NCBI GenBank assembly: GCA_903872035.1
Contig: CAIQIZ010000011.1
Span: 1 to 54,024 of the forward strand
Source: an uncultured bacterium
GTDB lineage: Bacteria; Patescibacteriota; Minisyncoccia; Phycocordibacterales; PALSA-1337
Length of the DNA stretch: 54,024 nt
Direction: 5' to 3'
Part shown: piece after piece, positions 1-45,111 of the stretch
Layout: every line of letters starts with the position of its first letter
Position numbering within the stretch: the first letter of the stretch is position 1
Made by a program: the position numbers and the translations under genes
Notes under the pieces: model-generated
What the model was told of the DNA's origin: nothing
What the model saw: the letters and a program-made list of their open reading frames with translations, nothing else
Database searches by the model: none

Positions 1-3000
1 AGGAACCGGTACTAGTGGCGAAATGCAATCCATCAGTTGAAGTGGCGGTGTAGAGAAGGATGGTAGAACCATTGTTTGCTGGAGCGTTGAAGTATATGGT
101 GGCTTGACTGTCGCCGCTAGAGACGGAAGTGATCGTAGGTGCATCGGGAATAGTTGCCGGCATGACAGAAATACTGGCCGCCGAAGGAGAGCTTGTCCCA
201 GTACTATTGGTCGCAGTAACGGTAAATGTATAGCTAGCACCATTATTCAAACCACTGATTGTGATCGGAGAAGTGGTGCCAGTCGCAGTCTGTCCCCCGC
301 TTGAGGTCACCACATATCGGATTATCGCAGAGCTTCCATTATCTACTGGTGGAGTAAATGTGATGGTCGCGCTATTGGAACCAGCAACAGCGACTATATT
401 CGTCGGTGGATTTGGGATATTTTGATAATTGAAATACGGATAAGTCGAAGCTTCAGCAATCTTCCAGATAAGCGAGGTGAAGTCCCAACCCGTATAAGTA
501 GCCTGGTGCTGCATGACTGGAGTAGTCGTTCCTGTCATGACTCCGATTCCTGAATTCATAAGATCAGTGAGTGCCGTTCCATCTTGGGCAACTGCTACAA
601 GCAAACCATTTCCATAAGCAACAGCATTCCATAAGCGAGCCGAAGCACTTGTCTGGCTCGTCCAAGTGATTCCATTCGGTGAAGTCATGATTTGAGTCGC
701 GACTGCTCCGTCATATGCGACTGCTACGAATAGCCCATTCCCAAATGTGACTGATGTCCACTGTCTGGCCGAAGGACTTGTCTGACTAAACCAGTTAACT
801 CCATCAGTAGAAGTCATGATCTGTGTCGCGACGGCTCCATCGTATGCGACTGCCACGAATATTCCATTTCCATACGTTACTGAACGCCATTGACGAGCTG
901 AAGGGCTTGTCTGACTGAACCAATTCACCATATCAGAAGATGTCATGATCTGATTGGCAGTAGTACCATCTTGAGCGACAGCCACGAACATACCATTACC
1001 GTATGTGACAGAACGCCATTGACGAGCTGAAGGGCTAGTCTGAATGAACCACTGTATTCCATCAGATGATGTCATGATCTGGCTTGTTGTCGCAGTGCTG
1101 GAAGCAACCGCCACAAAATATCCATTTCCATAAGTCACTGAGTACCACTGCAGTCCCGACGGACTAGTTTGGTTCGACCAATTGATCCCATTGGAAGATG
1201 TCATGATCTGGGTCGTAGTCGCGGTACTTGAGGCGACTGCTACGAATATTCCATTACCGAAAGTGATCGAGGACCATTGACTGGCAGACGGGCTGGTTCG
1301 AGCTAGCCATACCTGACCGTCGATCGACGTCATGATCTGGTTAGCCGTGGTACCATCCGATGCTACTGCCACGAAAATACCATTGCCATAAGCAACTGAA
1401 CGCCATTGACGGGCAGACGTGCTTGTCGCAACTGCCCAAGCAAAGCCTCCAGTAACTCCATTCAATTTTCCAGAATATGTAGCATCGAAATAATCTGAAA
1501 CATAGCTGCCACCCAATGAAGAACCTACCAAACCTCCGACATATTGTGTACCTGATCCGCCAAGTGTTCCTGCACCACCATTTGAACCACCTGTGCCACC
1601 AGTACCTTTTGCACCACCAGCGCCACCAGTAGCACCTGAAGTTTTTGTCCCACTAGGCGCTCCGATCGAATATGCATTTGTTACAGCTGAAGTGTTATTT
1701 GTTCCCAAAAGGCCGCCGACAAATGCATTGGCACCCGTTCCGCCGTTGCCGCCGGTCAAACCGTTCCCATTGGCACCATTACCTAAAGTTCCGGTTCCAC
1801 CATTTCCACCAGGGCCGCCAGGGCCTCCATTACCGGGAGTCCCTGCCGTCGAGCTGGCAGAACCAGTCGAATAAGCATTGGTAATGACACCTGTATTTTG
1901 TCCGACCAAACCTCCACCATAGACATCACCTCCGTTACCACCGTTACCGCCGGCAGATCCATCTCTTCCTGTGCCTCCAGTCCCAGAAGTTCCACCGGTA
2001 CCTCCAGCTCCACCTTGACCACCTGTCCCACCAACGACACCATTACCTCCGACCATGGTGACATTGCCAGATGAGTAGCTTGTGTTAAAACTTCCTGTCG
2101 TAAGGTTCGCCCCAATAAAACCTCCAGCATAGCTCGTTCCGCCAGCGCCACCATTGCTGCCACCGAGACTTGTTCCACCGTTGCCGCCGTTTTGATTGCT
2201 AGTGGTTCCAGCATCACCTCCTCTTCCTGCGGTACTGCTAGCTCCAGCTGTCCCACCATTACCTCCAACAGTATAAATATTTCCGGAAGACCAAGAATCT
2301 TGAACTATTCCAGCGGTGAAATTTTCTCCAAGAAAACCACCGGCAAATAGGTTACCGCCAGTTCCAGCCGCTGCAGTCGTATTCTCGTTACCACCCACTC
2401 CGCCAGCACCGGTCGGACCACCATCCCCACCTCTACCACCGTTGCCCCCAGCACCACCAGCACCACCGGTTCCACCATAGACATTCACATTTCCAATAGA
2501 ATAATCGGTGTAAAGCGTTCCAACGTTGTAGCCAACAAAACCTCCGGCGTATGCAATACCCCCAGCCGATCCTGCAGTCCTAACACCAGCCTGTCCGCCA
2601 GTTCCGCCAGCTCCACTTGCCTGACCATCTCCGCCCCTACCACCATCACCTCCCTCTCCGCCAGCTCCACCATTGCCGCCATACAAAGTCACCGTCCCAG
2701 TTGACCATGAATCCTTGATCGTTCTTCCTGATTCGTTTGCGCCAGCAAAACCTCCGGCATAGGCGTTTGTTCCTGCACCCGAAGCCGCAGCAGATCCTCC
2801 AGCACCACCGTTGGCTCCGGCACCGCCAGCACCCCCTACTCCACCTTGAGCTCCGATACCTCCCGCTCCACCAGCACCTCCTATTCCGGCTCTGCCAATG
2901 ACATTGCTAGTAGAATATGAATTTAAATATATTGTTCCATTATTATCTCCGACAAAACCGCCAACATATAGCGCGCCAGGAAGCGCTGCCACTGCTGAAC

Positions 3001-6000
3001 CGCCAGTAAATCCATCGCCGCCTTTTCCTGCCGTTCCTGGTAATCCTCCGTCACCTCCTTTACCGCCGTTACCACCATTACCGCTAGTAGCATCGATAGT
3101 CGTACCAGTGGCATAACTGGAAATAGTAGTACTGGCAGCGTTTTGGTTATAGCCGATAAGACCTCCGGAATAATTTGCTCCACCGATTCCACCAGTTCCA
3201 CCAGTGCCTCCAGGGCCTCCGATATGAGTGCTAGTTCCAGCTGACCCATCGCCACCCTTTCCACCTTCCCCGCCTGTGCCACCGTTTTGAGACACAGACA
3301 ATACCGAGCTATTTGCAAAGGAACTAATAATTATTCCTGTCGCTTCATTGTTACCGATGAGACCGCCAGCGTAAATAGCTCCACCGTTACCACCTGCTCC
3401 ACCATTACCACCAGAAGCTGCAGTACCTCCTGAAAGCGTTCCTGATATTCCTCCCGGACCTCCCTTTGCCGCAGTACCAACGCTGCCACTATAGGCAAAA
3501 ACATTTCCTGTAGCATAAGAAGTATCTTCTACAATACCAGTATTGTCTCCGACCAGTCCGCCGACATAGACTGCTCCACCGTTACCTGTCGCACCGCCGT
3601 TACCGCCAACTCCACCCTTCGCGCTAGTTACTCCTGGGCCGCCATGACCGCCGATAACTCCGATCTTTCCATCTCCCGATGTTCCTCCGGTTGCGTAAAC
3701 ATTAGCTGTCGAATAGCTACTGCTTATAGATAAGTTCATGCTTGCGGTTGAAACCGTCCTTCCAACCAAACCTCCTGCATAAGCAGCACCTCCGGCACCG
3801 CTTGTACCTGCTGCACCAGTCGCGCCTCCAGCGCTGTCCGTTCCTCCATAACCAGATGTTCCTGCAGTTCCTCCATCACCACCCTTACCTCCCATAGCAA
3901 TCACTGTATTGCTCAGCGAATATGAGTTCGTATAATTTCCTTCTCCAGCACTTGCCCCACCATAGCCAACCAGACCTCCGGCGTCTGCCTCACCACCAAT
4001 ACCACCGTTACCACCTATACCGCCGTTACCGCCAGCCGCAGTTGAAGTACCGTCAGCCCCGATGCCACCTGTATTTCCCATGCTGCCTCTGCCACCTAAG
4101 GCATAGACATTTCCCGTCGCGTATGAATTTAGAATATCGTTCACGCCTCCAGCCAAAGTCACCTTGTTGTTTCCAATGAGACCTCCAGCATAAGCGGCAC
4201 CTCCAGTTGAAACTGTAACAGCACCGCCTCCGTTAAGACCGGTTACGTTAGGGCGTGAAAGAGCAGCGTCGCCAGATTTTCCACCCGTTCCAGCATTTCC
4301 ACCAGTTGAAGTTGCGCTGACTGTAGCGAACACTCCGATGTAATCTATCTGTCCTGATGTAAGAGCGCTGTATCCAACCAAACCTCCAGCATCTGCTTCG
4401 CCACCGGCACCTGACTGTCCTCCGAGGACTGCCCCGGCAGCGACGTGACCGGAAACTCCCAAAAAGGCGCTTCCGGCTGCTCCAGCAGAGCCGCCATCGC
4501 CGCCATAACCTCCTTGAACAACGACATTTCCGGTTGCATATGAATTGACTATTTGCAGAATCGGACCAGTCGTTCCGCTTATGCGACCAACCAAACCTCC
4601 ACCATAGGCTGCGCCGCCAGCGTATCCAACAGCACCGGCAATACCTACAGCAGATGTTCCACCTGATACTGCTCCGGAAGCACCGCCAGATCCGCTATTT
4701 CCTCCTGTTCCACTTCCACCTCCAAAGACTTTTATGTTTATATTTGAATATGAACCTTGAATAGTTCCAGTAGTACCAGGAAGATAATCGCCGACAAGTC
4801 CGCCGATAGCACGGAGTCCGCCGTAACCTCCCGCTCCACCAATGACACCGATGCCTCCCATGCTCGACACTGAACCTGCACCGCCACTTCCACCATTACC
4901 ACCTTTGCCTCCCGGTTGTTCGGTTCCAGAAATCGTGATTCCATCCGAGAAAGATGAAGTGATGTTTCCGGAACTGAACCCAACGAGCCCACCAATAACC
5001 GCTCCGACCGCTCCGCTAGCCCCGCCTCCAGTTCCAGCCGCCGCCCCTCCCTGTCCGCCAGCGCTACCAACTAATAGTCCAGAACCACCATTACCAGCAT
5101 TTCCGCCTTTACCAGCCGAACCGCCATTCGCAACAATATTTCCTTCTCCAGTCGTTGAATCATAACCTGCATATGATGAGACAATGTCCGATGTCGTATA
5201 GCCTATGAGACCTCCTGCGTATATAGCACCTGGGGCACCGCCGTTTCCACCGTTCGAACCGGCCGTTCCGCTAGTTGATGTAGCTGTCCTTCCATCAGTT
5301 CCATCCATACCAGATCCGCCAGTGATATTGAGTGTTGTTGTAGAAAATGAATTGGTCTCAACGACTCCTGTTGTATATCCAACAAGACCACCTGCATATA
5401 TCTGCCCTCCAGCACCTCCAGCACCTCCAGCACCACCCAGACCATATATTGCTGCTGCCACGTTGACTGATCCTGCACCGCCTATTCCTCCAAAGGCCGA
5501 GGTTCCCCCTGACGCACCATTGATTGTTATTGTTCCACCTTTTGCATATGAACTAGTGACCGTCCCCAAAGTGATGCGACCTACTAGACCTCCGACTTGA
5601 ACAGCCGTGCCGGCACCAGTGGCTCCTGATCCACCAGCACCACCGACTCCACCGACTCCACCGATCTCGCTTGCACCAAGAGAGCCATCTCCACCATCGC
5701 CGCCTCTAGATCCAGCACCACCTGTACCGGCGATCACTGTTATATCAGTCGATGTAGCATATGAATTTCTTATGACCGCCAAGATCGTAGTATCTTCTCC
5801 GACCAGTCCACCGACGTTCATGAGTCCGCTCGCCCCTCCAGCGCCGCCTGTGCCTCCCTGACCAGCAGTAACCGCAGTCGTGCTTCCAGATTTTCCAGCT
5901 GCGCCTCCGATTCCACCAACACCGCCGTTGCCGCCGATAGCTTGAATGAATCCGGAATAATGATAACTGTTGTCTACAGTTCCAGTGAATTGACCGATGA

Positions 6001-9000
6001 GACCGCCAGTATAATTTGCTGCGCCAGCACCACCGATTATACCGTTACCTCCATCACCTCCTTTAAATCCGTATCCACCGGTGTTACCTGTTCCGCCGCT
6101 TCCTCCCACACCGCCAGTTCCAGAAGTTCCACTAACTATACTGGTCGAATATGAATCGACGACCAGGCCGATCGTTCCTATACCGATGAGTCCGCCGGTG
6201 TATGCTATGCCTCCAAGCGCAGTCGCGCCGCTACCTCCAGCACCTCCATTGCCCCCGATGGCGGCATTGCCAGCACCACCATCACCACCTTTTCCAGCCG
6301 ATCCAGCACTACCGGCAGTCGAGGATGCCATACCCATCGAATACGAGTCGCTCACCAAAATGTACGAGCTCGTGAGTCCGACCAAACCACCGACATAAGT
6401 GTAACCACCAAAACCTCCGACGCCCCCGGTTCCACCAAGACCTCCAGCCATCGATGCCGCCCCATCGCCACCAGTTGCTCCTTTTGCTCCCAAACCTCCC
6501 ATCTGTCCAATGACCATCACTGTACCGGTTGCATAAGAAAATCTGATAGTATCTCCAGCACCAGCCGCTGCTCCGATGAGCCCCCCGGCATAAGTGTAGG
6601 CTCCTGACGCTCCTCCAGCACCTCCAGCTCCGCCTGCTCCTCCTTGAGCTCCGATAGTTCCTGGAGTTGATGTCCCACCCGCTCCTCCGATACCCGCAGT
6701 AATGGACACATTGTTAGTCGAATATATAGTATCGAAAAGAATATAGTTTGATCCGCTATAACCAACCGCGCCTCCAGCGTAGCTCGCACCGGTGACACCA
6801 CCGTTACCACCAGTTCCACCTGTGCCGTTCTTACCAGCACCTCCACCACCGACTCCACCATTTCCACCAGTACCTCCTATGCCGCCACTCGAACCTGAAA
6901 CGATGGTGATATTTCCTCCGATCGCATGTGATAAAGAAATATTTCCGTTACCCTGACCTGCCAAACCTCCAAGGTATATGACGCCACCGTTTCCACCGTT
7001 TCCACCAGTGCCTGCGACCCCTCCATTGAAGCCAGCCAAGCCTCCGCTTCCACCATCGCCACCGTTACCACCATTACCCCCGTTTCTTCCGCTGGCAGAT
7101 ATACTTCCGATAACTTCCGAATTCAATATTACTCCTGGATTATCTCCAGCCAACCCTCCAACCAAAGTCGTTCCACCAATACCTCCAGCTCCACCACTAC
7201 CTGCCTGACCTCCAGTTCCTACTGAAACGCTTCCCGTCGTAGACCCCGCATTTCCACCTCTTGCACCATTACCTCCCCAGCCACCGATGACATTTATAGA
7301 TGTAATAGTGTAATGAATATCTCTGATGATCCCAGTATTTGATCCGGCGATACCACCTCCATAATCAGCCCCTCCGTTACCTCCGGCTCCGCCCGTGCCA
7401 CCACCTCCACCAGCAGCTCCGGTTCCTGCTCCACCAACTCCACCGATACCACCATCACCTCCGCTTCCTCCAGTTGAATTAATCCAACCAAGATTATTTG
7501 CATTTATTATCGTAGTCCCCAACACTCCGTTATATCCCATGACTCCTCCGACATATGCAGCTCCGCCGATTCCACCAGCACCACCCGCGATACCTCCAAC
7601 TCCCGTACCGCTCGTTCCTGCAGCACCGCTTGCGCCGCCTGCTCCACCATTTCCAGCGCGACCGCCAGTAGAAGAAGCATCGCCTGTCGCAAATGTATCA
7701 TCGCTGACCAGAGCCAAGCTGTAACCGACCAAACCTCCAGCGGAAGCCACGCCACCAGTTCCACCTATTCCACCCTGTATACCCACAATGCCAGCATTTC
7801 CATTTGTTGAGTTTCCGCTCGCCGCTCCTGTCGTCCCATCTCCACCTCTACCTCCCGTAGCATAAGCATCTCCCGAAGCATGAGATCCCCCTTGGATATT
7901 TCCACCAGCCGCATTGTATCCGAGAAGCCCACCGGAATATGCTGCGCCACCAGTTCGAGAAGTTATATTCCCAGCCGTATCTCCCAAACCATTTGCGCCT
8001 CCTGTAAATCCCAAACCTCCACTAACCACTCCATTTCCTCCTTTGCCACCAGAGCCAGGCATGCCTCCATAACCTCCTGTTGAAGATGCTATACCTGTAG
8101 CATATGAATTATTGATTATTCCATTGCTGTAAGCTACCAAACCTCCAGCATATGCGGCGGCCGGTGCTGAAACTGCTCCACCCGCTCCTCCGGCAGCTCC
8201 CAAACCACCAGCTCCACCAACCCCACCATTACCAGAACCTCCACCGATCGCACTGACTGAGACCAGAGCAAAAGAATTCTGCACAACTCCATTCTGGGTA
8301 CCGCTCGTAAAATTGTTTCCAACGATACCTCCTGCATATGCAATGTTCCCAGCAGCTCCCGCTCCACCGATTCCACCCTGACCTCCAGCCGATCCAGTTC
8401 CTCCCACACCTCCGTCACCACCGTTGACTCCATTTCCTCCAGCGCTTCCAACTGCCAGAACTGAACCTAGTCCGATATTCGCATTAGTGATCGTCGTGAC
8501 GCTCTGTCCAGCTATGCCTCCGGCATATGCGATCGCCCCAGCTCCACCAGCGCCACCAGTTGCTCCAGCCGCACCAAGGTGACCAAGGCTACCGAACGCA
8601 CCGCTTCCAGCAATTCCAGCTGCAGCTCCATTTTTACCTGCTGATGCCACAGCTATGACCGTACTAGAAGCGTAAACATTTGTGATTGCGTTCGTGGTAT
8701 CTCCGGCGATTCCACCCGCGAAAGCCGCCGCACCAGCTCCACCAGTTCCTCCAGTCTGACCAGCAGCCGCAGTTCCAGTGCTTATCGTTGAAGTGCTGTT
8801 CCCGCCATTGCCGCCATAACCAGCATCACCGGCGATCCCAGCAAAGGCCGAAACATTTCCCAACATGAGCGATGTCGAAATCGATGTGATCACTCCAGCA
8901 TTTCTTCCGACAAATCCCCCAGCATAAGCGACTCCTCCCTGACCTCCATTACCTCCGGTTCCCGAAGCGCCTCCAGCAAATCCAGTTCCACCATTTTTTC

Positions 9001-12000
9001 CACCATCGCCACCGGACCCGCCTCTGCCTCCGTTACCTCCAGCTCCGCCCGAGACTGTCGTGCTAGCCGTAGATGAGGCATTGGAGAGGGTGCCGATGAT
9101 AAATTTTCCAATGATCCCACCTCCATCGGCTTCACCTCCGGTCCCACCGTTCTGTCCTAGCTGTCCAGCACCCCCAGTCGTAGTCGTACCGTTAGCTCCA
9201 TTGCCTCCGGTTCCGCCGATTCCTCCCATACCGGCATTTACGATAATATTTCCTGCAGAATATGCATTGAGAATATCTCCAGCATTCTGATAACCAACTA
9301 TTCCAGCCACGTAAGCAACACCACCGTTAGCACCGGCAGTTCCGGCAGTACCAGCCATACCAAGGATCCCATCTATCCCATTGGCTCCGGCGCCTCCGGC
9401 TCCGGATGTGCCGATAACATCGCCGATAGAATACACATTTGTGAGTATTCCTCCAGAAGAACCAACTGTGCCATCAGCACCGGTAATTCCACCCTCATAA
9501 ATAATCGCGCCAACGGTTGCCGTTCCACCAGGACCAGCCAGACCGCTTCCGCTTCCAGCACCTCCTGCTCCAGCGGCACCTCCAGCTCCAGCGGTTCCAT
9601 TTATTGCTCCAGTCATATGATAGCTATCAGTGATGAGAAGCGTGTTGTTACCAGCAACTCCTCCGACGTAGATTACTCCTCCGGCGCCACCAGTACCACC
9701 GCCGGCCGCAGTCAAATTCGCCCGACCAGCTGCTCCGTTACCACCCGCGCCTCCAGCCCCAGCAGTTGCTGATATAGCGTTCGTAGAAAATGAATACTGG
9801 ATAGTTCCAATGTTGCTACCAGCTAGCCCGCCAGCGTATGAGTTAGCGATCGTAGCATTGTTACCTGCACCGCCATTTCCTGTAGTTCCAGCTGCACCAC
9901 TCAGACCGCTCGTTGCCAGACCACCAAGCCCACCCGTTCCTCCGATACCACCGATTCCACCATGTAAGTAAATCAATCCGGTTGTTGAATAGGCAGAAAC
10001 GATCAACCCAGAATTTTGTCCTGCAATACCGCCGACCAAGGCTGTTCCTCCAGTTCCTCCAGCAGCGGCGGCATCAGCACCGCCGGCTCCTCCACCCGTT
10101 GCACCAGAACCGCCGATGCCTCCAGCTCCAGCGATTTTTCCATCTGCTCCAGTGGCAGAGACAGAACCTATAGAATATACCTGACCAGCAGTGCCGTTAA
10201 TTATTCCACCCGTTCCATTTTGAGCAACGATGCCTCCAGCGTAAGCCACACCTCCAGCACCGCCGCTTCCACCATTACCGCCAGCCGCCGTATTATTTCC
10301 AGGACTCGTGCTAGCATTCCCTCCCGCAGATCCAACAGTAGCTATTCCGCCAAATGATTGGATGGTCCCGGTTGCAAAAGATCCCGCTTCGATCACGGCA
10401 TTATTTACTCCGACCAAACCGCCGGCATATGAGAAACCTCCAGCGCCACCAGCCGCTCCGTTCCCACCAATACCAGAAATCGATGGGAGAGTTCCTCCGG
10501 CACCACCATTTCCAGCGAGACCTGCCGCCCCTCCAACACCTCCGATAGCTGTGACATTTCCTTCGGAATTTGAGGCTGTTATAGTTCCGGAATTTGTCCA
10601 GCCGACCAAACCTCCGGTATAGCTTACCCCGCCGGCGCCCGGCACTCCAACTGCTCCGCCGGCGCCTCCAATACCTGTCCCTAGAGTGTATCCGCCTTCA
10701 CCGCCGTTACCGCTGGCTCCACCTGTTCCTCCTATTCCCATGACCATAGCAGTCGAACATGAATTTGTAATATTGCCTTGTTGGAAGAATCCAACCAAGC
10801 CCCCAACGTAAACCGTACCACCAAGAGCCGCCGCATTGCTGACAGAAAGCCCTCCGGCTCCGGCCGTACTAGCACCGCTTGCTATCCACCCTCCTTTGCC
10901 TCCATAACCTCCCAAACCTCCTGTTCCACCCATACCGATGATGCTTCCAGAAACATTCACATTTGTGATCAGTCCGGAATTATAAGCGACTAGACCTCCG
11001 ACATACAAAGTCCCACCCGCCCCACCAGCTGTCGGAGTAGTCGTTCCATTGGCGTTTGCTGAAGCTGTTACTGTTCCACCCATTACCCCGTCGTTGCCGT
11101 TCACTCCTGCTGTTCCAGGAGTACTGGTAGCATTGATAGAAATATTTGAAAGAGTGACATTTCTGATTTGACTGACAGAATATCCGAATAGTCCGACATA
11201 GCTCGATGAAGTCGTCGAAATATAAAGATTGCTTATCTTATACCCACCACCATCAAAATCGCCAGTGAAGTTTGTTGTGGCATTTCCGATAGGGATGAAT
11301 CCGGTGTTCTGATTCCACGCGGTCGTGGATGCGGCATCGATGTCGTTAAACAATTTGAACGAGCTCGTCAAGCTAGTCCTCATTGCCTGCAAACCGTAAA
11401 CATCATAGATCATGAACGGATCAGCGCTTATGCCTGTGCCAGTGTATCGACGAAATGTCCCGGCATTCAGGGCGAAGTTACCTGCCGCAGAAAAAGTGTT
11501 TACAGCAGGATTCATAGCAGTGAATGTGGCCGCTGATGTTTCCACAAAGTTACCGGATTGCCCACTAGTATTGACTATGAAAAGAGGTGCGTTCTGGACG
11601 ATTGTCCCCGTATATCCAGTCGAAGTTCCAATAGTAAACGAACCGACCGTCGTGGTCGCATTGATAGTCACGATTGAAGCACCCGTGCCTGAAAAGTTAT
11701 CGAAAAAGACGCTGGTATTAGGACCTGGCAGGTTCCCACTTCTAGCTATGCCATTCGACGAAGTAGCCCAATGGTTCGTATCATCAGACCAGTTTCCAGT
11801 CCCATTGACCCAGTAAGCGATATTCGGAGCTGGGTCGACGACATAGTCTATGTCGGTGTTCCCAATGATCTTCAGATCAAAAACTGCCGTCGGAATCAAG
11901 AGATCTGTGAGCAATATCCGATATTTGCCATCCTGGTCGATCTGGAAAGTGGCCTGGAGCGGACTGCCTTCGGTAGTATTTCCTAGAGCATCAGTGTAGA

Positions 12001-13207
12001 CAGGATATACCTGTATGGATGTCGGTCCTGACCCAACATGAGGCCGCGCATAGATAGTGATATCGTTCGAACTCTCCAGCCCCCTATCAAAAGTGACTCG
12101 AACATACTGCCCATCAGCCAGATCCGCAAAATTCTGATCCAGCATTCCGACAAGATCGAAAATATCGCCAATAGCATTCAAGTTAGAATCCAACTGCAAA
12201 GCGTTTGAAATATAAATTATTTGAAATGTTTGCGTCGACAAGTGCGGCACGATCCAACCAACGTGGTCGATAAATCCATTACCATCGTCATCATAAGCAA
12301 CGAATTGCATGTCGGCGCTCCCGTTGTTCTGCCATTTGATCTTGATCTTATCTTCTTCACCGACTTTGTATATTTCCGGTATAGCGATGCGAACAGGAAC
12401 ATCGATCATCGGCTGTACTGCTTCCTGCTCATCCGTCGCCGAGATAGTCACCAGTTTTCCATTCGCAGTCTCTTGCTCGACAATTTTTGGAGGTGTTGTC
12501 GTCGCCACCGATTCAGTAGTCGAGGCCGTTGATGTCGCTAACTGTTCGGTAGTCGAAGCAGTGATAGTGATAGCTGTTGTTGAAGCGGTAGTCCCTATTG
12601 AAGAGGTCGCCACTAGCAAAGTTGTGCTCGCTTGTGGGAGAGTAGTTGTCCCTTGAAGATTCGTGCCACCACTTGAACCACCGACTGAAGTTGGTTCTGT
12701 TGTCGAAGCTGTCGATGTAGAAGTTTCGCCTGGATTCGTAGACGATGCAAAAGAAGTTGTTGAGGAAGCCGTATATGAAGAAGTGGAGGTCGCAAATTCC
12801 GGAAAAGTTGATCCCGAGCCTGTTCCTGGATTTACAGGTTCTATGACAGGGGCTGCAGAAGACGCATTCGTTGATTCTGATGTCGAAGCGACTGATCCTG
12901 ATGATTGCGCATTTCCATCTGATGACGATGGTGACACAGTCGGCGACGGTGAGGTCGATGGTGTCGGCGTAGGATCTGGAGCAACACTGACCGACGGTGT
13001 CGGCGTAGGGACACTTGATGGTGAAGCTGATGGAGTTGCTGACTGAACATCAGGAGAGACTGATGGAGAAACTGCGCTTTCTACCGGTGGAGCCACTGCG
13101 GCATCCCCCGAAGCAACGTCGTCAGCGAGTGCTATGCGAGAGGAACCGACGAGAAGAAGCACGACCAAAATTAAGTTCACACCTAGACGAAAGGTTCGGG
13201 CCATCAT
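1..13207 (-). CDS. Giant secreted repetitive surface protein (signal peptide; P/S/T linker; GLUG-like/Gly-rich repeats; propeller-like repeats; Fn3-like), truncated at left window edge
   Basis: Minus-strand ATG at 13207 (or 13204) gives (M)MARTFRLGVNLILVVLLLVGSSRIALADDVASG..., a clear signal peptide. Frame checked by hand near 12.4, 11.9, 10.0, 8.9, 6.0, 3.0, 2.0, 1.4 and 0.1-0.3 kb, always open and protein-like. No minus ORF in the supplied track below 13.2 kb has this frame (all have end mod 3 = 0, this one is 1), so no in-frame stop closes it inside the window. Confidence 0.93.
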   Translation of the reverse strand, partial: MMARTFRLGVNLILVVLLLVGSSRIALADDVASGDAAVAPPVESAVSPSVSPDVQSATPSASPSSVPTPTPSVSVAPDPTPTPSTSPSPTVSPSSSDGNAQSSGSVASTSESTNASSAAPVIEPVNPGTGSGSTFPEFATSTSSYTASSTTSFASSTNPGETSTSTASTTEPTSVGGSSGGTNLQGTTTLPQASTTLLVATSSIGTTASTTAITITASTTEQLATSTASTTESVATTTPPKIVEQETANGKLVTISATDEQEAVQPMIDVPVRIAIPEIYKVGEEDKIKIKWQNNGSADMQFVAYDDDGNGFIDHVGWIVPHLSTQTFQIIYISNALQLDSNLNAIGDIFDLVGMLDQNFADLADGQYVRVTFDRGLESSNDITIYARPHVGSGPTSIQVYPVYTDALGNTTEGSPLQATFQIDQDGKYRILLTDLLIPTAVFDLKIIGNTDIDYVVDPAPNIAYWVNGTGNWSDDTNHWATSSNGIARSGNLPGPNTSVFFDNFSGTGASIVTINATTTVGSFTIGTSTGYTGTIVQNAPLFIVNTSGQSGNFVETSAATFTAMNPAVNTFSAAGNFALNAGTFRRYTGTGISADPFMIYDVYGLQAMRTSLTSSFKLFNDIDAASTTAWNQNTGFIPIGNATTNFTGDFDGGGYKISNLYISTTSSSYVGLFGYSVSQIRNVTLSNISINATSTPGTAGVNGNDGVMGGTVTASANANGTTTPTAGGAGGTLYVGGLVAYNSGLITNVNVSGSIIGMGGTGGLGGYGGKGGWIASGASTAGAGGLSVSNAAALGGTVYVGGLVGFFQQGNITNSCSTAMVMGIGGTGGASGNGGEGGYTLGTGIGGAGGAVGVPGAGGVSYTGGLVGWTNSGTITASNSEGNVTAIGGVGGAAGLAGNGGAGGTLPSISGIGGNGAAGGAGGFSYAGGLVGVNNAVIEAGSFATGTIQSFGGIATVGSAGGNASTSPGNNTAAGGNGGSGGAGGVAYAGGIVAQNGTGGIINGTAGQVYSIGSVSATGADGKIAGAGGIGGSGATGGGAGGADAAAAGGTGGTALVGGIAGQNSGLIVSAYSTTGLIYLHGGIGGIGGTGGLGGLATSGLSGAAGTTGNGGAGNNATIANSYAGGLAGSNIGTIQYSFSTNAISATAGAGGAGGNGAAGRANLTAAGGGTGGAGGVIYVGGVAGNNTLLITDSYHMTGAINGTAGAGGAAGAGGAGSGSGLAGPGGTATVGAIIYEGGITGADGTVGSSGGILTNVYSIGDVIGTSGAGGAGANGIDGILGMAGTAGTAGANGGVAYVAGIVGYQNAGDILNAYSAGNIIVNAGMGGIGGTGGNGANGTTTTGGAGQLGQNGGTGGEADGGGIIGKFIIGTLSNASSTASTTVSGGAGGNGGRGGSGGDGGKNGGTGFAGGASGTGGNGGQGGVAYAGGFVGRNAGVITSISTSLMLGNVSAFAGIAGDAGYGGNGGNSTSTISTGTAAAGQTGGTGGAGAAAFAGGIAGDTTNAITNVYASSTVIAVASAGKNGAAAGIAGSGAFGSLGHLGAAGATGGAGGAGAIAYAGGIAGQSVTTITNANIGLGSVLAVGSAGGNGVNGGDGGVGGTGSAGGQGGIGGAGAAGNIAYAGGIVGNNFTSGTQNGVVQNSFALVSVSAIGGGSGNGGVGGAGGLGAAGGAGGAVSAPAAAYAGGLVAYSNGIINNSYATGIASSTGGYGGMPGSGGKGGNGVVSGGLGFTGGANGLGDTAGNITSRTGGAAYSGGLLGYNAAGGNIQGGSHASGDAYATGGRGGDGTTGAASGNSTNGNAGIVGIQGGIGGTGGVASAGGLVGYSLALVSDDTFATGDASSTGGRAGNGGAGGASGAAGTSGTGVGGIAGGAGGIGGAAYVGGVMGYNGVLGTTIINANNLGWINSTGGSGGDGGIGGVGGAGTGAAGGGGGTGGAGGNGGADYGGGIAGSNTGIIRDIHYTITSINVIGGWGGNGARGGNAGSTTGSVSVGTGGQAGSGGAGGIGGTTLVGGLAGDNPGVILNSEVIGSISASGRNGGNGGNGGDGGSGGLAGFNGGVAGTGGNGGNGGVIYLGGLAGQGNGNISLSHAIGGNITIVSGSSGGIGGTGGNGGVGGGGAGKNGTGGTGGNGGVTGASYAGGAVGYSGSNYILFDTIYSTNNVSITAGIGGAGGTSTPGTIGAQGGAGGAGGAGGASGAYTYAGGLIGAAAGAGDTIRFSYATGTVMVIGQMGGLGAKGATGGDGAASMAGGLGGTGGVGGFGGYTYVGGLVGLTSSYILVSDSYSMGMASSTAGSAGSAGKGGDGGAGNAAIGGNGGAGGSGATALGGIAYTGGLIGIGTIGLVVDSYSTSIVSGTSGTGGVGGSGGTGNTGGYGFKGGDGGNGIIGGAGAANYTGGLIGQFTGTVDNSYHYSGFIQAIGGNGGVGGIGGAAGKSGSTTAVTAGQGGTGGAGGASGLMNVGGLVGEDTTILAVIRNSYATSTDITVIAGTGGAGSRGGDGGDGSLGASEIGGVGGVGGAGGSGATGAGTAVQVGGLVGRITLGTVTSSYAKGGTITINGASGGTSAFGGIGGAGSVNVAAAIYGLGGAGGAGGAGGQIYAGGLVGYTTGVVETNSFSTTTLNITGGSGMDGTDGRTATSTSGTAGSNGGNGGAPGAIYAGGLIGYTTSDIVSSYAGYDSTTGEGNIVANGGSAGKGGNAGNGGSGLLVGSAGGQGGAAAGTGGGASGAVGAVIGGLVGFSSGNITSSFSDGITISGTEQPGGKGGNGGSGGAGSVSSMGGIGVIGGAGGYGGLRAIGGLVGDYLPGTTGTIQGSYSNINIKVFGGGSGTGGNSGSGGASGAVSGGTSAVGIAGAVGYAGGAAYGGGLVGRISGTTGPILQIVNSYATGNVVVQGGYGGDGGSAGAAGSAFLGVSGHVAAGAVLGGQSGAGGEADAGGLVGYSALTSGQIDYIGVFATVSATSTGGNAGTGGKSGDAALSRPNVTGLNGGGAVTVSTGGAAYAGGLIGNNKVTLAGGVNDILNSYATGNVYALGGRGSMGNTGGIGADGTSTAAGGNGGIGGNGGIGGEADAGGLVGYGGASAGEGNYTNSYSLSNTVIAMGGKGGDGGTAGTSGYGGTDSAGGATGAAGTSGAGGAAYAGGLVGRTVSTASMNLSISSSYSTANVYATGGTSGDGKIGVIGGHGGPGVTSAKGGVGGNGGATGNGGAVYVGGLVGDNTGIVEDTSYATGNVFAYSGSVGTAAKGGPGGISGTLSGGTAASGGNGGAGGNGGAIYAGGLIGNNEATGIIISSFANSSVLSVSQNGGTGGEGGKGGDGSAGTSTHIGGPGGTGGTGGIGGANYSGGLIGYNQNAASTTISSYATGTTIDATSGNGGNGGKGGDGGLPGTAGKGGDGFTGGSAVAALPGALYVGGFVGDNNGTIYLNSYSTSNVIGRAGIGGAGGAGGIGAQGGVGGAGGAGANGGAGGSAAASGAGTNAYAGGFAGANESGRTIKDSWSTGTVTLYGGNGGAGGEGGDGGRGGDGQASGAGGTGGQAGVRTAGSAGGIAYAGGFVGYNVGTLYTDYSIGNVNVYGGTGGAGGAGGNGGRGGDGGPTGAGGVGGNENTTAAAGTGGNLFAGGFLGENFTAGIVQDSWSSGNIYTVGGNGGTAGASSTAGRGGDAGTTSNQNGGNGGTSLGGSNGGAGGTSYAGGFIGANLTTGSFNTSYSSGNVTMVGGNGVVGGTGGQGGAGGTGGTSGTGGTGRDGSAGGNGGNGGDVYGGGLVGQNTGVITNAYSTGSASSTAGTPGNGGPGGPGGNGGTGTLGNGANGNGLTGGNGGTGANAFVGGLLGTNNTSAVTNAYSIGAPSGTKTSGATGGAGGAKGTGGTGGSNGGAGTLGGSGTQYVGGLVGSSLGGSYVSDYFDATYSGKLNGVTGGFAWAVATSTSARQWRSVAYGNGIFVAVASDGTTANQIMTSIDGQVWLARTSPSASQWSSITFGNGIFVAVASSTATTTQIMTSSNGINWSNQTSPSGLQWYSVTYGNGYFVAVASSTATTSQIMTSSDGIQWFIQTSPSARQWRSVTYGNGMFVAVAQDGTTANQIMTSSDMVNWFSQTSPSARQWRSVTYGNGIFVAVAYDGAVATQIMTSTDGVNWFSQTSPSARQWTSVTFGNGLFVAVAYDGAVATQIMTSPNGITWTSQTSASARLWNAVAYGNGLLVAVAQDGTALTDLMNSGIGVMTGTTTPVMQHQATYTGWDFTSLIWKIAEASTYPYFNYQNIPNPPTNIVAVAGSNSATITFTPPVDNGSSAIIRYVVTSSGGQTATGTTSPITISGLNNGASYTFTVTATNSTGTSSPSAASISVMPATIPDAPTITSVSSGDSQATIYFNAPANNGSTILLYTATSTDGLHFATSTGS
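540..1430 (-). repeat. About 7 tandem 43-aa propeller-like repeats in the giant protein
   Basis: Translated repeats such as WFSQTSPSARQWRSVTYGNGIFVAVAYDGAVATQIMTSTDGVN; gtcatgat(c/t)tg recurs at ~685, 814, 943, 1069, 1198, 1330, spacing about 129 bp. Confidence 0.85.
1520..11010 (-). repeat. About 49 degenerate tandem repeats, period about 197 bp (66 aa): GLUG-like rung plus GGX-rich loop
   Basis: Recurrent plus-strand signature such as accaaacctccagcatatgc (minus: (A)YAGG(F/L)VG) at ~1527, 1710, 1906, 2114 ... 10604, 10794, 10990. Example units: YVGGFVGDNNGTIYLNSYSTSNVIGRAGIGG; TGGLIGQFTGTVDNSYHYSGFIQAIGGNGGVGGIGG. Confidence 0.9.
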
Positions 13208-15635: not shown

Positions 15636-18600
15636 CTATCTACTAAGTACCGCGTGCATAATGCGGCTAAATGCCCAATAAACGCTAGCAGTGAATTCTG
15701 ACGAACCGTTGTTTAGATCCATCGCAGCCGGACTACTTGAAGGGCTCGGTGTGTGACTCGGGGTTGGTGACGGAGATGACGATGGTGTTGGTGATGCTGT
15801 CACCGATACAGAAGGCGTCGGACTTGGCGCGTGACTAATGGAAGGTGTCGGGGATGGTGAGCTAGATTGGCTAGCTGAGGAACCGGCATAATAACTAGAT
15901 GTTCGAGCAGATTCGGACGCAGGTGCTGGTGTAGATGAAGGAGTAGGTGAAGGAGTCGGAGCTGATACTGATCCTTGTGAATACGGAATAGGTGTAGGTG
16001 ACGATGCGATACCGGAGATCGTCAGCGTCATATTGTTACTTGAACCTGTAACTGGGTGTGTGACTTGTACGGAATATACACCCACTGGAACATTTGGTAC
16101 GAATTGCAATGTAGAACCATTAGCCGAAACTACGGAATATGTCTTTGGTGTAGAGGGACGCCCCGCCAATTGTGCCATCAAAGTAACGACGTTTGCTGCA
16201 GTCTTAGAGAAGCGGACACCCGTGATCGTGACTGTCTGATTTGGAGTGGCAGGATTAGGTGAGAGCGAATTGAGATATGGCGAGACTTCGCCTATGATCA
16301 CGACGTTGTTCGTGGTGTTAGCAGTTGTTACAGGTATGAATTGGAGATTTGGATATTGACCGAGTACGACTTGGGTCAACGAACCATGATAAGCTCCAGC
16401 GAACATCTGCTTGGGATTGGCGGTCATAGTAACGGTGAAAGTCGACACTGTATTTGCTGGTAAGTTGAAATAACCGAAGCCGTCATCTGTCGCACCTCGT
16501 TGAGTATAAGTTTCCGGACCGCTCCAATTGAAGCCGTTTCCGGTCACATCGAAGATAGAGAACGCTCCTTCCTTCTGAAGCTTTTGTGGGACATTGCCTG
16601 GATTTATCCCGACCGTAAACGTATTAACCAAACCCGCTTCCCCACCAGACGGGTCATACTTCAAAGCTAGAGTCGGTGTACCAACGATCGTAACCGAAGC
16701 CGGCGTAGCGTTTGGATCCGTTATAGTGAACTCACCACTCTTACCACTCAACCCGGAATTGTTATCCTGTATGACGATTTTGTAGCTACCCGACGGGATA
16801 TCCGCCAAGACCCAAGCATTTCCATTGTAGTAATAATATTTACCAACTGTCCAGGTGTACGTGTTGTTTGCATAACTGGCAAGCCGATTTGGGTCGGCCA
16901 GATAATACATGTTGTAACCATTTGAATCTTCTGCCCAGATCTGCATCAATTGATTTCCTCCTCCAGTCCAAACGATATCTGCATGTGACCCAACTGAGAG
17001 GTTACTACCGGTTGCCGGAGCTGTGACAGATATAGGATCGAGAGCACCGAAAGTCAACGGGTTAGTCGAGGCATTGAAAGTAAACGGGACGACCTTATAA
17101 TTTGGTTGGAAACTATCAAGCCGCACACGATATGTATCCTTCAGCAAGCCATCACGTCTCACTGACCCCGTGAGCACAAACCGCGCTGTAGAATTCGGAG
17201 ATATTAGATAATATGGCCCAGGAACATCTGTAACATTCGTGCTTGGCATATCATATGACAGGTTTATGTTCGAATTATGATTGTCACCAGTTCCAACCAA
17301 TGTATAGGCAAAGGCACCAGACCTTAACACTTGTAATGCGGAAGGGCCAGCATGAATATCCACATTAAAAGTGGCATTCGCCCAATTCTGGTCACCCTGA
17401 CTGGTCTGCAAAGTCCCAACACCAACCACATTCGCTGTAACTCCTGGTGGCCGGATCTTCGTCAAAGCACAATGATTCAGAAAAGCAGATAGATGCGATT
17501 CATATACCTGCTTTGAGGTGAATGGTAAAGTTACAGCTATCGGATGATAAGTTTGCCCCATAGCCTGAGCAAAACTGGCCGAAGTGAAGTAGCTCGCGTA
17601 TTGGTAGAATCGTATCTTCAAATACTCGATCAGCATGGTCTTGTCGACATTGCTGTATGGGAACTGATTGACTAGAGCGATCATTTGATCGAGCGATGCT
17701 GAACTTCCAAATATGTTCCTAGCGATTCCATAATATGACGATTGATACGAAGGACGAATATCGTTGGACAGACCACTTATGAGTTGTGAGACGTACGTAT
17801 TGGCAGGATCCGCAACAGTCATGCCACACGAGAAAGCCGCGTCGAATCCATGTGGTATTATCTCTGTCTTACCAGTGGTCAAGTTTATGCCCCAATCTTC
17901 ATTATGAAGAGGCGCCACATCTTCCAGATTTAGAACTTCCGTCAACAAGAACAACCTGATCGTCGTATCCGGATCGAATGACAACTGATGGATATCCGTA
18001 TTATCTGTCTTGCTCACGATAGAGGCTGAAGTCAGTCTGTTTATCACATTAGGGGTCCAAGAAGCTTTCCCACCTTGGTTATCACCGGATTCATAAAGAC
18101 TCGAATTCAGATTGAATTGGGTTGTAAATGGAACCTCATCACTGCTTTCATTGTCTCTTGCGACCATCATGTAACGGAATGTGCGCCCGGCATATCCAGG
18201 ATCGGTAGTGAGGAATCTTACATTGGCGAAACCGACGATATCCGTTGTAGGAACACCAAAAGCTCTGAATATCTTGAATATTATGTATTCTCGGAGGTTG
18301 ACATTCAGTTGACCGCTGAAACCGATATCACTGCCATTGGCAGTGTAATCGTTCCAACCATCACATTCGGGAATGAGCCGGACTTTCTTATACTTCAATA
18401 TCGACTTCCCGTCATAAGTGCTCAAACCGTGGAACTTACCATCTGGATTTCCTGAAGAAAAAGTGACATTCAGGACTGGCGGACGACATTCTGAACGCAT
18501 ACCGCCCTTCCATTCGTATTTTATGCTCCAATCTTGGATAGTAGCGCCGTTTTGGCTTTCCTTCAGATCTCCAGAAGGATTGGGGGTTGTTCCAGTAATC

Positions 18601-18764
18601 AATAAGGACTGGCCGAGAGTATCGAATGTAAAATCGTGCATCGGATACGTGCTCGTCTGAGCAATCGCTAGTTTAGGAAACACCATCAGATAACCGACCA
18701 CGAGTGACGCCAAAGTGCCGCTTAATATAGCGGCTATAATAAGCGGACGAGATTTATTTTTCAT
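15636..18764 (-). CDS. Secreted multidomain protein (possible CotH-kinase-like N-terminal region, IPT/TIG domain, C-terminal P/S/T linker)
   Basis: 1042 aa; N-terminal signal/TM; IIPHGFDAAFSCG and HNEDWGINL resemble the CotH catalytic region; SPYLNSLSPNPATPNQTVTITGVRF is TIG-like; C-terminal PTPSPTPSSTP... linker. Confidence 0.75.
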   Translation of the reverse strand: MKNKSRPLIIAAILSGTLASLVVGYLMVFPKLAIAQTSTYPMHDFTFDTLGQSLLITGTTPNPSGDLKESQNGATIQDWSIKYEWKGGMRSECRPPVLNVTFSSGNPDGKFHGLSTYDGKSILKYKKVRLIPECDGWNDYTANGSDIGFSGQLNVNLREYIIFKIFRAFGVPTTDIVGFANVRFLTTDPGYAGRTFRYMMVARDNESSDEVPFTTQFNLNSSLYESGDNQGGKASWTPNVINRLTSASIVSKTDNTDIHQLSFDPDTTIRLFLLTEVLNLEDVAPLHNEDWGINLTTGKTEIIPHGFDAAFSCGMTVADPANTYVSQLISGLSNDIRPSYQSSYYGIARNIFGSSASLDQMIALVNQFPYSNVDKTMLIEYLKIRFYQYASYFTSASFAQAMGQTYHPIAVTLPFTSKQVYESHLSAFLNHCALTKIRPPGVTANVVGVGTLQTSQGDQNWANATFNVDIHAGPSALQVLRSGAFAYTLVGTGDNHNSNINLSYDMPSTNVTDVPGPYYLISPNSTARFVLTGSVRRDGLLKDTYRVRLDSFQPNYKVVPFTFNASTNPLTFGALDPISVTAPATGSNLSVGSHADIVWTGGGNQLMQIWAEDSNGYNMYYLADPNRLASYANNTYTWTVGKYYYYNGNAWVLADIPSGSYKIVIQDNNSGLSGKSGEFTITDPNATPASVTIVGTPTLALKYDPSGGEAGLVNTFTVGINPGNVPQKLQKEGAFSIFDVTGNGFNWSGPETYTQRGATDDGFGYFNLPANTVSTFTVTMTANPKQMFAGAYHGSLTQVVLGQYPNLQFIPVTTANTTNNVVIIGEVSPYLNSLSPNPATPNQTVTITGVRFSKTAANVVTLMAQLAGRPSTPKTYSVVSANGSTLQFVPNVPVGVYSVQVTHPVTGSSNNMTLTISGIASSPTPIPYSQGSVSAPTPSPTPSSTPAPASESARTSSYYAGSSASQSSSPSPTPSISHAPSPTPSVSVTASPTPSSSPSPTPSHTPSPSSSPAAMDLNNGSSEFTASVYWAFSRIMHAVLSR

Positions 18765-19646: not shown

Positions 19647-21113
19647 TCACCTCCAGTTTGGGAACCACATCCTGGACTGTAATTGTTCTTGTGAGAGAGG
19701 GGTACCGTATGATATCGGACTCCAGAAAATGAAAGCTGTCAGAGCCAATAGGATGGCCGCGCCTATCAGGATATATTTGCGCCTGCCTTTGAGCTGATCA
19801 AGAATGTAGGCGATCGCCAATATTGAAAAAACAAGGGCAGCCTGATAATGGTAGAGGAACATGACTCGGCCAATGAAAATGAATGGCAGGAAATTCACAA
19901 GGAATCCGACGGCGATGAATACCGGTGCACGATGGACGATCTTTCGATCTTTCACCAATGATCCGATCGACAGCAACCATAGACCGTTCACGATGAGGCC
20001 GGTCATGACCAAGGCTCCAAGCCAGTATATGAAGGGATTGCCGAAGAGATAAATATAAGAATTGACATCTCGGTCAGCGATCGGCGCCGTTGCAGTCCCC
20101 TCCACCATCGCTGCCGTCGACGAAGCTGACCCCTGCCAGTAGAATATCGGTCTGGCCATGAATGGCCAGGTATACCATTTGCTGGAATATTGATGGGCAG
20201 CATTCATGTGAGCGTTCACACTGTACATCTGTTCATTCAGTTCAAAAAATTTGACTAGGAAACCCGGCGTAGAGATGGTCGGATCGTTACGGTATGTACT
20301 ATCGATCAAAGTCTTTTGGAATGCTGCCGACATGAAGGCGTTTCCCTGGCCAGACTTTGGCAACAAGGTAAAATGCACAGCGAAAGTCACCATGTACACG
20401 GTTAGACCGACGACCAACAGCACGACAAAAAACTTGATGGCATGCTTTATAGCCACCATCTTTCGAGGCGCTCCGACGATATCCCAGAGTTCGATAAGCA
20501 CTATGATCAGGCTGAAGGCTAAACCTGTCCATTTGAAATCGAAAGCCACCGCTGCCCATAGAGCCGTTAAGATAAGCCATCCACAACGTCGCATTTCGAA
20601 GCGCTTCGTAAATGTAACCGGCACTTTCAAGGAACGATATTGCAGATACGCAGCCAAGGATGTAAATCCTGCCAAGATAAGCATGCTATCCAGAAAGGCG
20701 AACCTGGATTGGACAAGCAAAGAATTCTCCAGGATTATGAAAAGGCCTGCCGAAAAAGCCGCCAAAGCAGAAAAGCGCAGACGCCGACAGAGCCAGTATA
20801 CGACCAGAGGCAATAGGATACCGGCTAGAAGAGGCAGAAGCCGATACCAAATGTATGTATCCGTCTGATACTTGTTCCCGATGTTCGAATAATCATGATT
20901 GATGCCGCTGATACCAGAAAGATGACCCGCAGCGGCGAGCAAGAGCTTCCCCAACGGCGGGTGAGGATCGAAATAGTATGTTCCCAAAGAGTAATCGTTG
21001 GCATACGTCACGAAATAGACCTCGTCAAAGACGACTTCAGCCGGACGCGGAAAGAACAAAAGATGCGTAGCGGCGCTTAGGACAAAGAGTGCCAATAGAA
21101 GGTATTTATTCAT
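19647..21113 (-). CDS. PMT-family (GT39) dolichyl-phosphate-mannose--protein mannosyltransferase-like membrane protein
   Basis: 488 aa polytopic; N-terminal FDEVYFVTYANDYSLGTYYFDPHPPLGKLLLA matches the PMT acidic/HPPLGK motif. Confidence 0.85.
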   Translation of the reverse strand: MNKYLLLALFVLSAATHLLFFPRPAEVVFDEVYFVTYANDYSLGTYYFDPHPPLGKLLLAAAGHLSGISGINHDYSNIGNKYQTDTYIWYRLLPLLAGILLPLVVYWLCRRLRFSALAAFSAGLFIILENSLLVQSRFAFLDSMLILAGFTSLAAYLQYRSLKVPVTFTKRFEMRRCGWLILTALWAAVAFDFKWTGLAFSLIIVLIELWDIVGAPRKMVAIKHAIKFFVVLLVVGLTVYMVTFAVHFTLLPKSGQGNAFMSAAFQKTLIDSTYRNDPTISTPGFLVKFFELNEQMYSVNAHMNAAHQYSSKWYTWPFMARPIFYWQGSASSTAAMVEGTATAPIADRDVNSYIYLFGNPFIYWLGALVMTGLIVNGLWLLSIGSLVKDRKIVHRAPVFIAVGFLVNFLPFIFIGRVMFLYHYQAALVFSILAIAYILDQLKGRRKYILIGAAILLALTAFIFWSPISYGTPLSQEQLQSRMWFPNWR

Positions 21114-21807
21114 GCTTAAAATATAAATCGCGATAGACTAGCCAGCTGTCCTTCAAGGCTCTCATGATAACATGCGGCTTGGCACCACTGGAATGACCGA
21201 GTTGACGCGGTAAATGCTTAACCGGAACCTCCTTGAAAGCCAGGCCGGACCGCTTCAAACGGATAAGCAATTCCGCCGAAAACATCGCTCCGCCAGAGAT
21301 CATTGGCAGATCGGACACTGCTTCAGTCTTGAATAATTTGAAGGCGCAGTCTATATCACGAACCTTCAATCCAAAGACTGTCCGTATAAATATATTCCAA
21401 AGGAAAGCATTCAGGAGACGAAGATGGTTATCTTTGCGCGGATTCCGGAATCCAATTATAATTTTGTATTCCGGTACCCATGGCAATAATTTCTTGATCT
21501 CCCCGATATCAAATTGCAGATCGCCATCGGTGAAAAAGACATATTCAAAACGGGCAGACTCGATTCCGCTCATGACTGCCGCACCATATCCTTTGTTGAG
21601 CCGATGATGAACCAGGCGAATTCGTGGATCTCCCGCCGCGATCTCTTCGGCGATCTCTCGAGTCCGGTCTGTACTTCCGTCATTGACGATGATGACTTCG
21701 AAATCAGTTATCTCCCGAATCGTCGTGAGGACATGCGAAACAGCGTCTGTAGCCGATCTGATATTTTCCTCTTCATTGTGAAAAGGTAAGAATACTGATA
21801 AGCGCAT
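21106..21807 (-). CDS. GT2 glycosyltransferase, DPM1-like
   Basis: 233 aa; MRLSVFLPFHNEEENI, VNDGSTDRT, FFTDGDLQF; overlaps the PMT gene by 8 bp. Confidence 0.88.
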   Translation of the reverse strand: MRLSVFLPFHNEEENIRSATDAVSHVLTTIREITDFEVIIVNDGSTDRTREIAEEIAAGDPRIRLVHHRLNKGYGAAVMSGIESARFEYVFFTDGDLQFDIGEIKKLLPWVPEYKIIIGFRNPRKDNHLRLLNAFLWNIFIRTVFGLKVRDIDCAFKLFKTEAVSDLPMISGGAMFSAELLIRLKRSGLAFKEVPVKHLPRQLGHSSGAKPHVIMRALKDSWLVYRDLYFKHE

Positions 21808-45025: not shown

Positions 45026-45111
45026 TTTATTATTAGTTAGAAAGTTAGAAAGTTAGAAAGTTTTGAAAGCATTATACATTATGAACTTGATAAACTTTAT
45101 GAACATTTAAA

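Follow-up and report, generated by a model that had tools for sequence, protein, structure and literature searches.

A giant, probably dockerin-bearing protein of an uncultured bacterium with a predicted GLUG β-solenoid and a candidate poly-glycine II wall

Few stand-alone poly-glycine II proteins are known. The snow-flea and springtail antifreeze proteins (3bog, 2pne, 7jjv) form antiparallel polyproline II (PPII) bundles of 6–13 helices that stand without a β-solenoid scaffold. Mycobacterial PE_PGRS proteins have been modelled as poly-glycine II sandwiches (PMC7830552, PMC9436101, PMC10216338) in which one glycine strand leads straight into the next and the repeat number is polymorphic (PMC10216338). 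In the phage S16 gp38-type adhesin, a small tail-fibre tip protein, a poly-glycine II domain presents variable loops for attachment (PMC8409303, PMC7830552). GLUG-repeat proteins (PF07581), which include the IgA1 proteases 7uvl and 7uvk and the putative IgA1 protease 3n6z, usually devote ~22–30 aa to each coil (genome G295 encodes a giant example), and cellulosome dockerin/cohesin pairs (PF00404, PF00963) hold enzymes.

Here we analysed a window of 54,024 nucleotides from an uncultured bacterium that is tiny, small-genomed and probably host-associated. A single reading frame on the minus strand (window 13207 to 2) carries 50 GLUG rungs and 49 glycine-rich inserts. The array shares the rung motif of the GLUG proteins (47 of 64 rungs) but adds a GGX hairpin of ~40 aa to each coil. 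It resembles the PE_PGRS proteins in its GGX triplets, with no more than five triplets per helix, and in the proposed flat wall at the cell surface with Gly inside and X outside; in contrast to those proteins, a GLUG coil lies between pairs of glycine strands and sets their spacing, and the repeat number is fixed. The antifreeze proteins are its best fold matches, although the wall proposed here would comprise ~98 arms. In the literature searched, we found no paper that mentions GLUG together with polyglycine and none that mentions GLUG together with β-helix.

Architecture of the protein and anatomy of the array

The encoded protein of ~5,000 amino acids runs from a putative secretion signal through a linker and an N-terminal domain into the GLUG array and then the C-terminal modules (Table 1). 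A Pfam scan of the whole protein revealed no PE domain; in its place the N terminus carries a putative signal peptide and a domain of unrelated type.

Table 1 Features of the giant reading frame in window coordinates
Feature	Position	Strand	Basis or remark
Putative signal peptide, MMARTFRLGVNLILVVLLLVGSSRIALA	13124..13207	-	Sequence reading; position same in orthologs
Ser/Thr/Pro-rich linker	12482..13123	-	Read off the translation
N-terminal domain, without Pfam match	11789..12481	-	Lower boundary approximate
GLUG coil entry cap, FTGDFDGGGYKISNLYI type	11201..11788	-	Boundaries approximate
Entry rung (rung 0) and first glycine-rich insert	11006..11200	-	
Rung above the Pfam Glug curated cut-off	10937..11014	-	Genome search, 22.6 bits against a cut-off of 20.5
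Rungs 1–49 (GLUG) and 48 further glycine-rich hairpin inserts	1448..11005	-	
AlphaFold2 fragment, units 42–46 and rung 47 (five units)	1841..2968	-	Mean pLDDT 83.9, pTM 0.82
Seven 43-aa repeats, SVTYGNGIFVAVA, Pfam EPTP	530..1447	-	Boundaries approximate
GLUG coil C-terminal cap, WDFTSLIWKIAEASTYPYF	410..526	-	Conserved in G070 and G273
Fibronectin type III (fn3) domain	173..409	-	PF00041, E 1.1e-9
Second fn3 domain, truncated by contig end	2..172	-	

An initial annotation had placed GLUG rungs alternating with about 49 Gly-rich loops at 1520–11010, in units of ~66 aa. These points are borne out: rungs 1–49 extend from 11005 to 1448 on the minus strand, the units average 65.7 aa (SD 3.8, range 56–74, 48 full units), and there are exactly 49 inserts, with 50 rungs once the entry rung is included. 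Its description of simple loops of 25–35 residues has to be corrected, as the inserts are ~40 aa long and each consists of two GGX arms and a connecting turn, with ~15 aa of (GGX)5, a turn of ~8 aa and a further ~15 aa of (GGX)5. Gly makes up 47% of the insert residues.

The reading of the rungs as GLUG was upheld by the family HMM, whose failure on them had been named as a possible refutation. Pfam Glug matched 47 of the 64 rungs scanned singly (E ≤ 1, best 2.2e-5), and no other Pfam family matched more than one of these 64. In the genome search only one place lies above the curated cut-off, and Glug is absent from the list of the whole-protein scan. The sole relevant match by sequence in the PDB, a weak one, was the putative IgA1 protease 3n6z.

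The inserts follow a three-residue period in register with the next rung. Gly at position i is accompanied by Gly at i+3 at a rate of 0.703, compared with 0.427 ± 0.013 (maximum 0.472) in 2,000 within-loop shuffles, and the register contrast against the next rung is 0.566, compared with a shuffle maximum of 0.148. Across 144 units from three orthologs, positions -3/-4, -6/-7, -9/-10, -12/-13 and -15/-16 ahead of the next rung are 60–79% Gly, whereas positions -5 and -8 are only 4–6% Gly. GGX triplets in a fixed register, one mark of a poly-glycine II or PPII bundle, are therefore present, and all inserts share their point of exit from the rung as well as their register. The two arms present different faces (chi-square p 2e-10): the X residues of arm 1 are polar (47% N/D/K/E/R/Q/H) and those of arm 2 are rich in Ala (37.5%).

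Conservation of the 50-rung array

Relatives were sought in genome contigs with a profile of the N-terminal domain, and the rows of the array alignment were in-phase and non-overlapping. Four intact arrays, from the window and from genomes G070, G273 and G989, represent four families in two orders; each contains exactly 50 rungs, and the rungs pair one to one at 53–60% identity. The N-terminal regions of the window and G070 proteins are 62% identical. Between the inserts of these two proteins, Gly residues are 88.6% identical and all other residues 28.9%, and the conserved Gly is encoded by a different codon in 67% of cases. With synonymous sites saturated, Gly is kept at 87–89% in orthologous inserts versus 80% between non-matching inserts. 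The median identity between units is 48% for DNA and 39% for protein.

Short tandem runs of 9–18 bp occur within the inserts, and glycine-rich repeats are prone to slippage, so the array could in principle be a recent, low-complexity expansion of glycine codons with no selected structure. The age of the units, the matching count of 50 in four arrays at this level of divergence and the retention of Gly across codon changes make such an origin extremely improbable, and we rejected it. Judged by these comparisons, the array is an old family.

The unit length differences between orthologs show no bias to multiples of three, contrary to the expectation that poly-glycine II would confine them to such steps, and the length changes lie in the turns or elsewhere. 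Related genomes encode further giant proteins with the N-terminal domain; these lack GLUG rungs, differ at the C-terminus and were discarded as array orthologs. Weak matches in G121 and G243 proved to be ordinary GLUG proteins with no GGX inserts. Searches of viral contigs, phages and plasmids returned no relatives of the array protein. One of the orthologs belongs to the bin AlinenLipids, probably from a boreal lake.

Predicted solenoid and glycine arms

AlphaFold models of the five-unit window fragment and of an ortholog (pLDDT 85.4, pTM 0.83) were computed from an alignment of internal repeats and one ortholog only, and glycine-rich sequence can be over-idealised in such models. Both show a coil with regular short strands in each turn (strand pLDDT mostly above 90), glycine arms mostly at pLDDT ~75–95 and hairpin tips falling to ~47–68. 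The arms are assigned to neither helix nor strand in the DSSP output, which as reported has no PPII state. The β-helix with a poly-glycine II side bundle that was initially suggested is thus supported: the coil is predicted with confidence and the arms appear ordered rather than disordered, while their packing as poly-glycine II is a prediction.

A Foldseek search of the PDB returned 7jjv, a nine-helix PPII springtail antifreeze protein, as the top match for both models. The PPII antifreeze proteins scored E 0.007–0.024, followed by IgA1 proteases of the GLUG-bearing group and other β-helices, also with E above 0.001; 7uvl reached a probability of 0.98 with the ortholog model. No match attained E ≤ 0.001 with either model, TM-scores were low, and as Foldseek also scores amino acids, the Gly-rich composition may favour the antifreeze matches.

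We considered whether, on a genuine solenoid, the inserts might form no poly-glycine II and instead be flexible and mostly disordered, acting as spacers or sticky bristles. The low scores of the tips, the poor conservation of X residues (29%) and the ortholog length differences are consistent with this idea. A disordered linker, however, needs no triplet register, and that register against the next rung is maintained over 144 units. The scores of the arms (pTM 0.82–0.83 for the models), the excess of Gly conservation in orthologous over non-matching inserts at saturated synonymous sites, and a PPII bundle as the top PDB match for both models also argue against it, and we judge disordered inserts unlikely.

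The same structural matches raise the question of whether a flat glycine wall might bind ice or order water in seasonally frozen lakes, as springtail antifreeze proteins do. The small X residues of arm 2 (Ala/Thr/Val) and the probable boreal-lake source of the AlinenLipids bin would fit such a role. However, the arm 1 face is rich in Asn/Asp/Lys, the similarity may reflect the PPII fold alone, and a surface anchor has no need of ice binding; we consider this role very unlikely.

C-terminal modules and a putative surface clip

The contig ends within the second fn3 domain of the gene. Another contig of the same genome, C23 (piece L089:1-1647), encodes about four fn3 domains and a C-terminal dockerin (PF00404, 2.7e-10, 40.7 bits against a cut-off of 22.9). 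Because this piece is 57% identical to the C-terminus of an ortholog, the gene very probably continues on C23, across a gap. The C-terminal dockerin is conserved in G070, G989, G767 and G799. Genes for cohesin-like transmembrane proteins lie directly downstream in five genomes, namely that of the window and four others. Pfam Cohesin (PF00963) matched 2 of 11 of these proteins at borderline to significant levels, most scored below the Pfam cut-off, and a PDB sequence search with their profiles found nothing significant (best cohesin match E 0.51). The dockerin above its curated cut-off and the adjacent cohesin-like genes recall cellulosome pairs and suggest that the giant protein may bind the neighbouring membrane proteins, although here the clip would hold a single giant structural protein and not enzymes.

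We regard it as fairly probable that the protein is a secreted surface blade, anchored by its dockerin and probably used for attachment. The data show the anatomy of the sequence, its GLUG membership, the register, the conservation, the dockerin and the gene cluster; the solenoid and the order of the arms are predictions, and poly-glycine II packing, binding of dockerin to cohesin and adhesion are inferences. The core would be a GLUG β-solenoid of 50 coils, each with a two-armed GGX hairpin inserted at an equivalent turn. Stacked from coil to coil as poly-glycine II helices, the arms would build a single continuous wall of two layers that follows the solenoid and measures ~24 nm by 4.6 nm, with glycines inside and X side chains outside; the layers would be commensurate because a spacing of ~4.8 Å is common to β-solenoid rungs and adjacent poly-glycine II chains. 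The C-terminal fn3 modules may form a stalk and the dockerin a clip to the membrane-anchored, cohesin-like products of the genes immediately downstream, which would hold the blade away from the cell. Attachment to a host, a neighbour or a surface would be its most likely function.

The recurrence of the 50-rung design in other families and the probable cell clip make this look like a real, undescribed surface structure. We lean, by a modest degree, towards regarding the composite as a fold not described before, in which a GLUG β-solenoid acts as a ruler for a ~98-arm poly-glycine II wall, with the count kept at exactly 50 rungs in distant bacteria and with dockerin–cohesin display. If so, the 4.8 Å β-solenoid rise serves as the template on which evolution builds a poly-glycine II sheet that is large, ordered and of defined length, and structural biologists could obtain such sheets from a natural source that is modular. 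It would also suggest a way in which certain bacteria with small genomes, probably host-associated, keep very large proteins at their surface, through a dockerin on the protein and cohesin-like membrane anchors encoded beside its gene. The constant rung count poses the question of what is being measured.

The seven EPTP repeats, placed ahead of the C-terminal cap, probably form a seven-bladed propeller; by sequence comparison, this block is missing from the G070 and G273 orthologs.

Architecture of the giant gene and its array

The window starts at a contig end (G000:C11, 54,024 bases), where the giant gene is truncated, breaking off within fn3 modules. The gene is a single frame, open all the way from its start codon, that encodes from the N-terminus a signal peptide, a Ser/Thr/Pro-rich linker, an N-terminal domain, a GLUG entry cap and the array. 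The array contains 50 rungs (GLUG motif segments) and 49 glycine-rich inserts; the initial annotation had placed about 49 such loops at 1520–11010, and both its count and its coordinates were correct. A unit of rung plus insert averages 65.7 aa (SD 3.8, 48 full units).

Each rung spans ~24 aa with the pattern YAGGLVGxNxGxIxNSYSxGxV. When rungs were scanned singly, 47 of 64 matched Pfam Glug and no other Pfam family matched more than one of the 64; a rung profile search led, with a weak E value, to 3n6z, the solved structure of a putative IgA1 protease. Ordinary GLUG giants of related genomes have no such glycine inserts. The ordinary GLUG giant of genome G295 (locus L065; 4,314 aa), also devoid of them, offers a useful comparison as a coil without inserts, and its C-terminus appears peptidoglycan-binding-like by eye.

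Glycine makes up 47% of insert residues in the window array, and the inserts exhibit a strong three-residue period, well above that of within-loop shuffles. Alignment of 144 units from three orthologs, anchored on the following rung, revealed glycine at 60–79% at positions −3/−4, −6/−7, −9/−10, −12/−13 and −15/−16 before the next rung, whereas −5 and −8 hardly ever carry it. The other run, of about five GGX triplets, begins ~25–32 residues past the rung start, and the turn between the two runs is poorly conserved; each insert is thus a hairpin with two arms of ~15 residues. The third residue of the triplet differs between the arms, with polar residues (Asn, Asp, Lys and others) in arm 1 and Ala in arm 2 (p = 2e-10). 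A wall whose two faces differ would require such an asymmetry, which does not prove one.

The N-terminal domain is common to other giants (1,700–3,200 aa) in related bacteria (loci L036, L037, L038, L059 and L060–L063), which are without GLUG rungs and have different ends, such as a transmembrane segment. The EPTP-like repeats, located within the C-terminal cap, are missing from the orthologs in genomes G070 and G273 and probably form a seven-bladed propeller. Their DNA copies are still 75–78% alike, indicating that the insertion is recent.

Features of the window and of a second dockerin locus
Feature	Location	Strand	Remarks
Giant gene	13207 (start codon) to 2	−	
N-terminal domain	11789–12481	−	No Pfam match
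EPTP-like repeats	530–1447	−	Seven repeats of 43 aa
Secreted protein	15636–18764	−	1,042 aa; no Pfam match
Protein O-mannosyltransferase (PMT) adjoining family 2 glycosyltransferase	19647–21807	−	Near giant gene
Two tandem repeats	45035–45062; 46177–46213		8-bp and 17-bp units; AGTTAGAA in both
Other dockerin protein, then two cohesin-like membrane proteins	G000:C15, L090:1794–5694		

Predicted structure of the array

Two AlphaFold2 models were built with internal-repeat alignments, one of window units 42–46 (mean pLDDT 83.9, pTM 0.82) and one of units 27–31 of the G070 ortholog (mean pLDDT 85.4, pTM 0.83). Similar short strands recur in every modelled coil. DSSP assigns the arms to neither helix nor strand, and their pLDDT is mostly 75–95, falling to 47–68 at the hairpin tips. 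Foldseek searches of the PDB ranked a nine-helix polyproline-II springtail antifreeze protein first for both models; the G070 model also matched IgA1 protease 7uvl with a probability of 0.98 and, with a target TM of 0.40, the snow-flea antifreeze protein 3bog, all matches having E >0.001 and low whole-model TM-scores. These results provide good but indirect support for a predicted solenoid with ordered arms that may be poly-glycine II helices.

The repeat distance is about 4.8 Å in beta-solenoids (rung to rung) as well as between poly-glycine II chains. This shared spacing allows the arms of one coil to stack in register on those of the next, and 50 coils would extend about 24 nm. The arms may thereby build a poly-glycine II wall. 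With a poly-glycine II pitch of 9.2 Å per triplet (PMC7830552), each arm would be about 46 Å long. The GLUG coil and the polyglycine bundle are each already known separately, the former from GLUG proteins and the latter from PGRS, antifreeze and phage adhesin bundles; an open-access paper library yielded no report of GLUG combined with polyglycine or with a beta-helix.

Relatives and conservation

Units within the window protein have a median identity of only 48% in DNA and 39% in protein, indicating that the duplications are old. Relatives occur in G070 (CAIKZC010000010.1, AlinenLipids bin-9080), G273, G989 (another order), G767 (same phylum; array truncated by a contig end) and G799 (Prado154 bin; a fragment). 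The four intact arrays, including that of the window, have exactly 50 rungs each, which match one-to-one at 53–60% identity, and the best match of an insert in another protein is the same-number insert in 29–30 of 48 cases (1 by chance). Between the window and G070, 88.6% of insert glycines are identical, against 28.9% of other residues; non-matching inserts also align glycine at 80%, so part of this identity reflects the shared pattern. A different codon is used at 67% of conserved insert glycines, about the value that the codon counts predict if the glycine codons present were drawn at random. Few genomes carry the family: 2 of 147 relatives, 2 of 380 genomes sampled from the phylum, 2 of 384 sampled from the class and, among 397 sampled from the order, three true members, each count including the window's own genome.

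Candidate anchor, neighbouring genes and source organism

Contig C23 of the window's genome carries a piece that is 57% identical to the C-terminal end of the G070 ortholog and very probably represents the missing end of the giant gene. It comprises roughly four fn3 modules as well as a dockerin (PF00404, 40.7 bits), and the gene after it encodes a cohesin-like domain and then a transmembrane segment. The same clustering, a dockerin end followed by two cohesin-like/transmembrane genes, was observed in G070, G989, G767 and G799, the dockerin end in G767 and G799 lying on a separate contig linked to the array by sequence similarity only. PF00963 was matched by 2 of 11 cohesin-like proteins, making the assignment weak for most. 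The window's genome (1.05 Mb, 31 contigs) has only two dockerins, both adjoining cohesin-like membrane-protein genes; at the second locus (contig C15), one of the two cohesin-like proteins passes the Pfam Cohesin cut-off. The dockerin may clip, in a calcium-dependent manner, to these putative membrane cohesins, and the giant protein could serve as an adhesin or as a stiff blade on the cell surface.

Speculatively, the Ser/Thr-rich linker could be a substrate of the O-mannosyltransferase and glycosyltransferase encoded nearby. Records with N-terminal-domain relatives carry the names Candidatus Paceibacterota and Staskawiczbacteria; we infer that the bacterium is a member of the Patescibacteria and, from their known lifestyle, that it is probably host-associated. 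The N-terminal half of the secreted 1,042-aa protein resembles CotH-type kinases by eye. Both tandem repeats sit between long reading frames.
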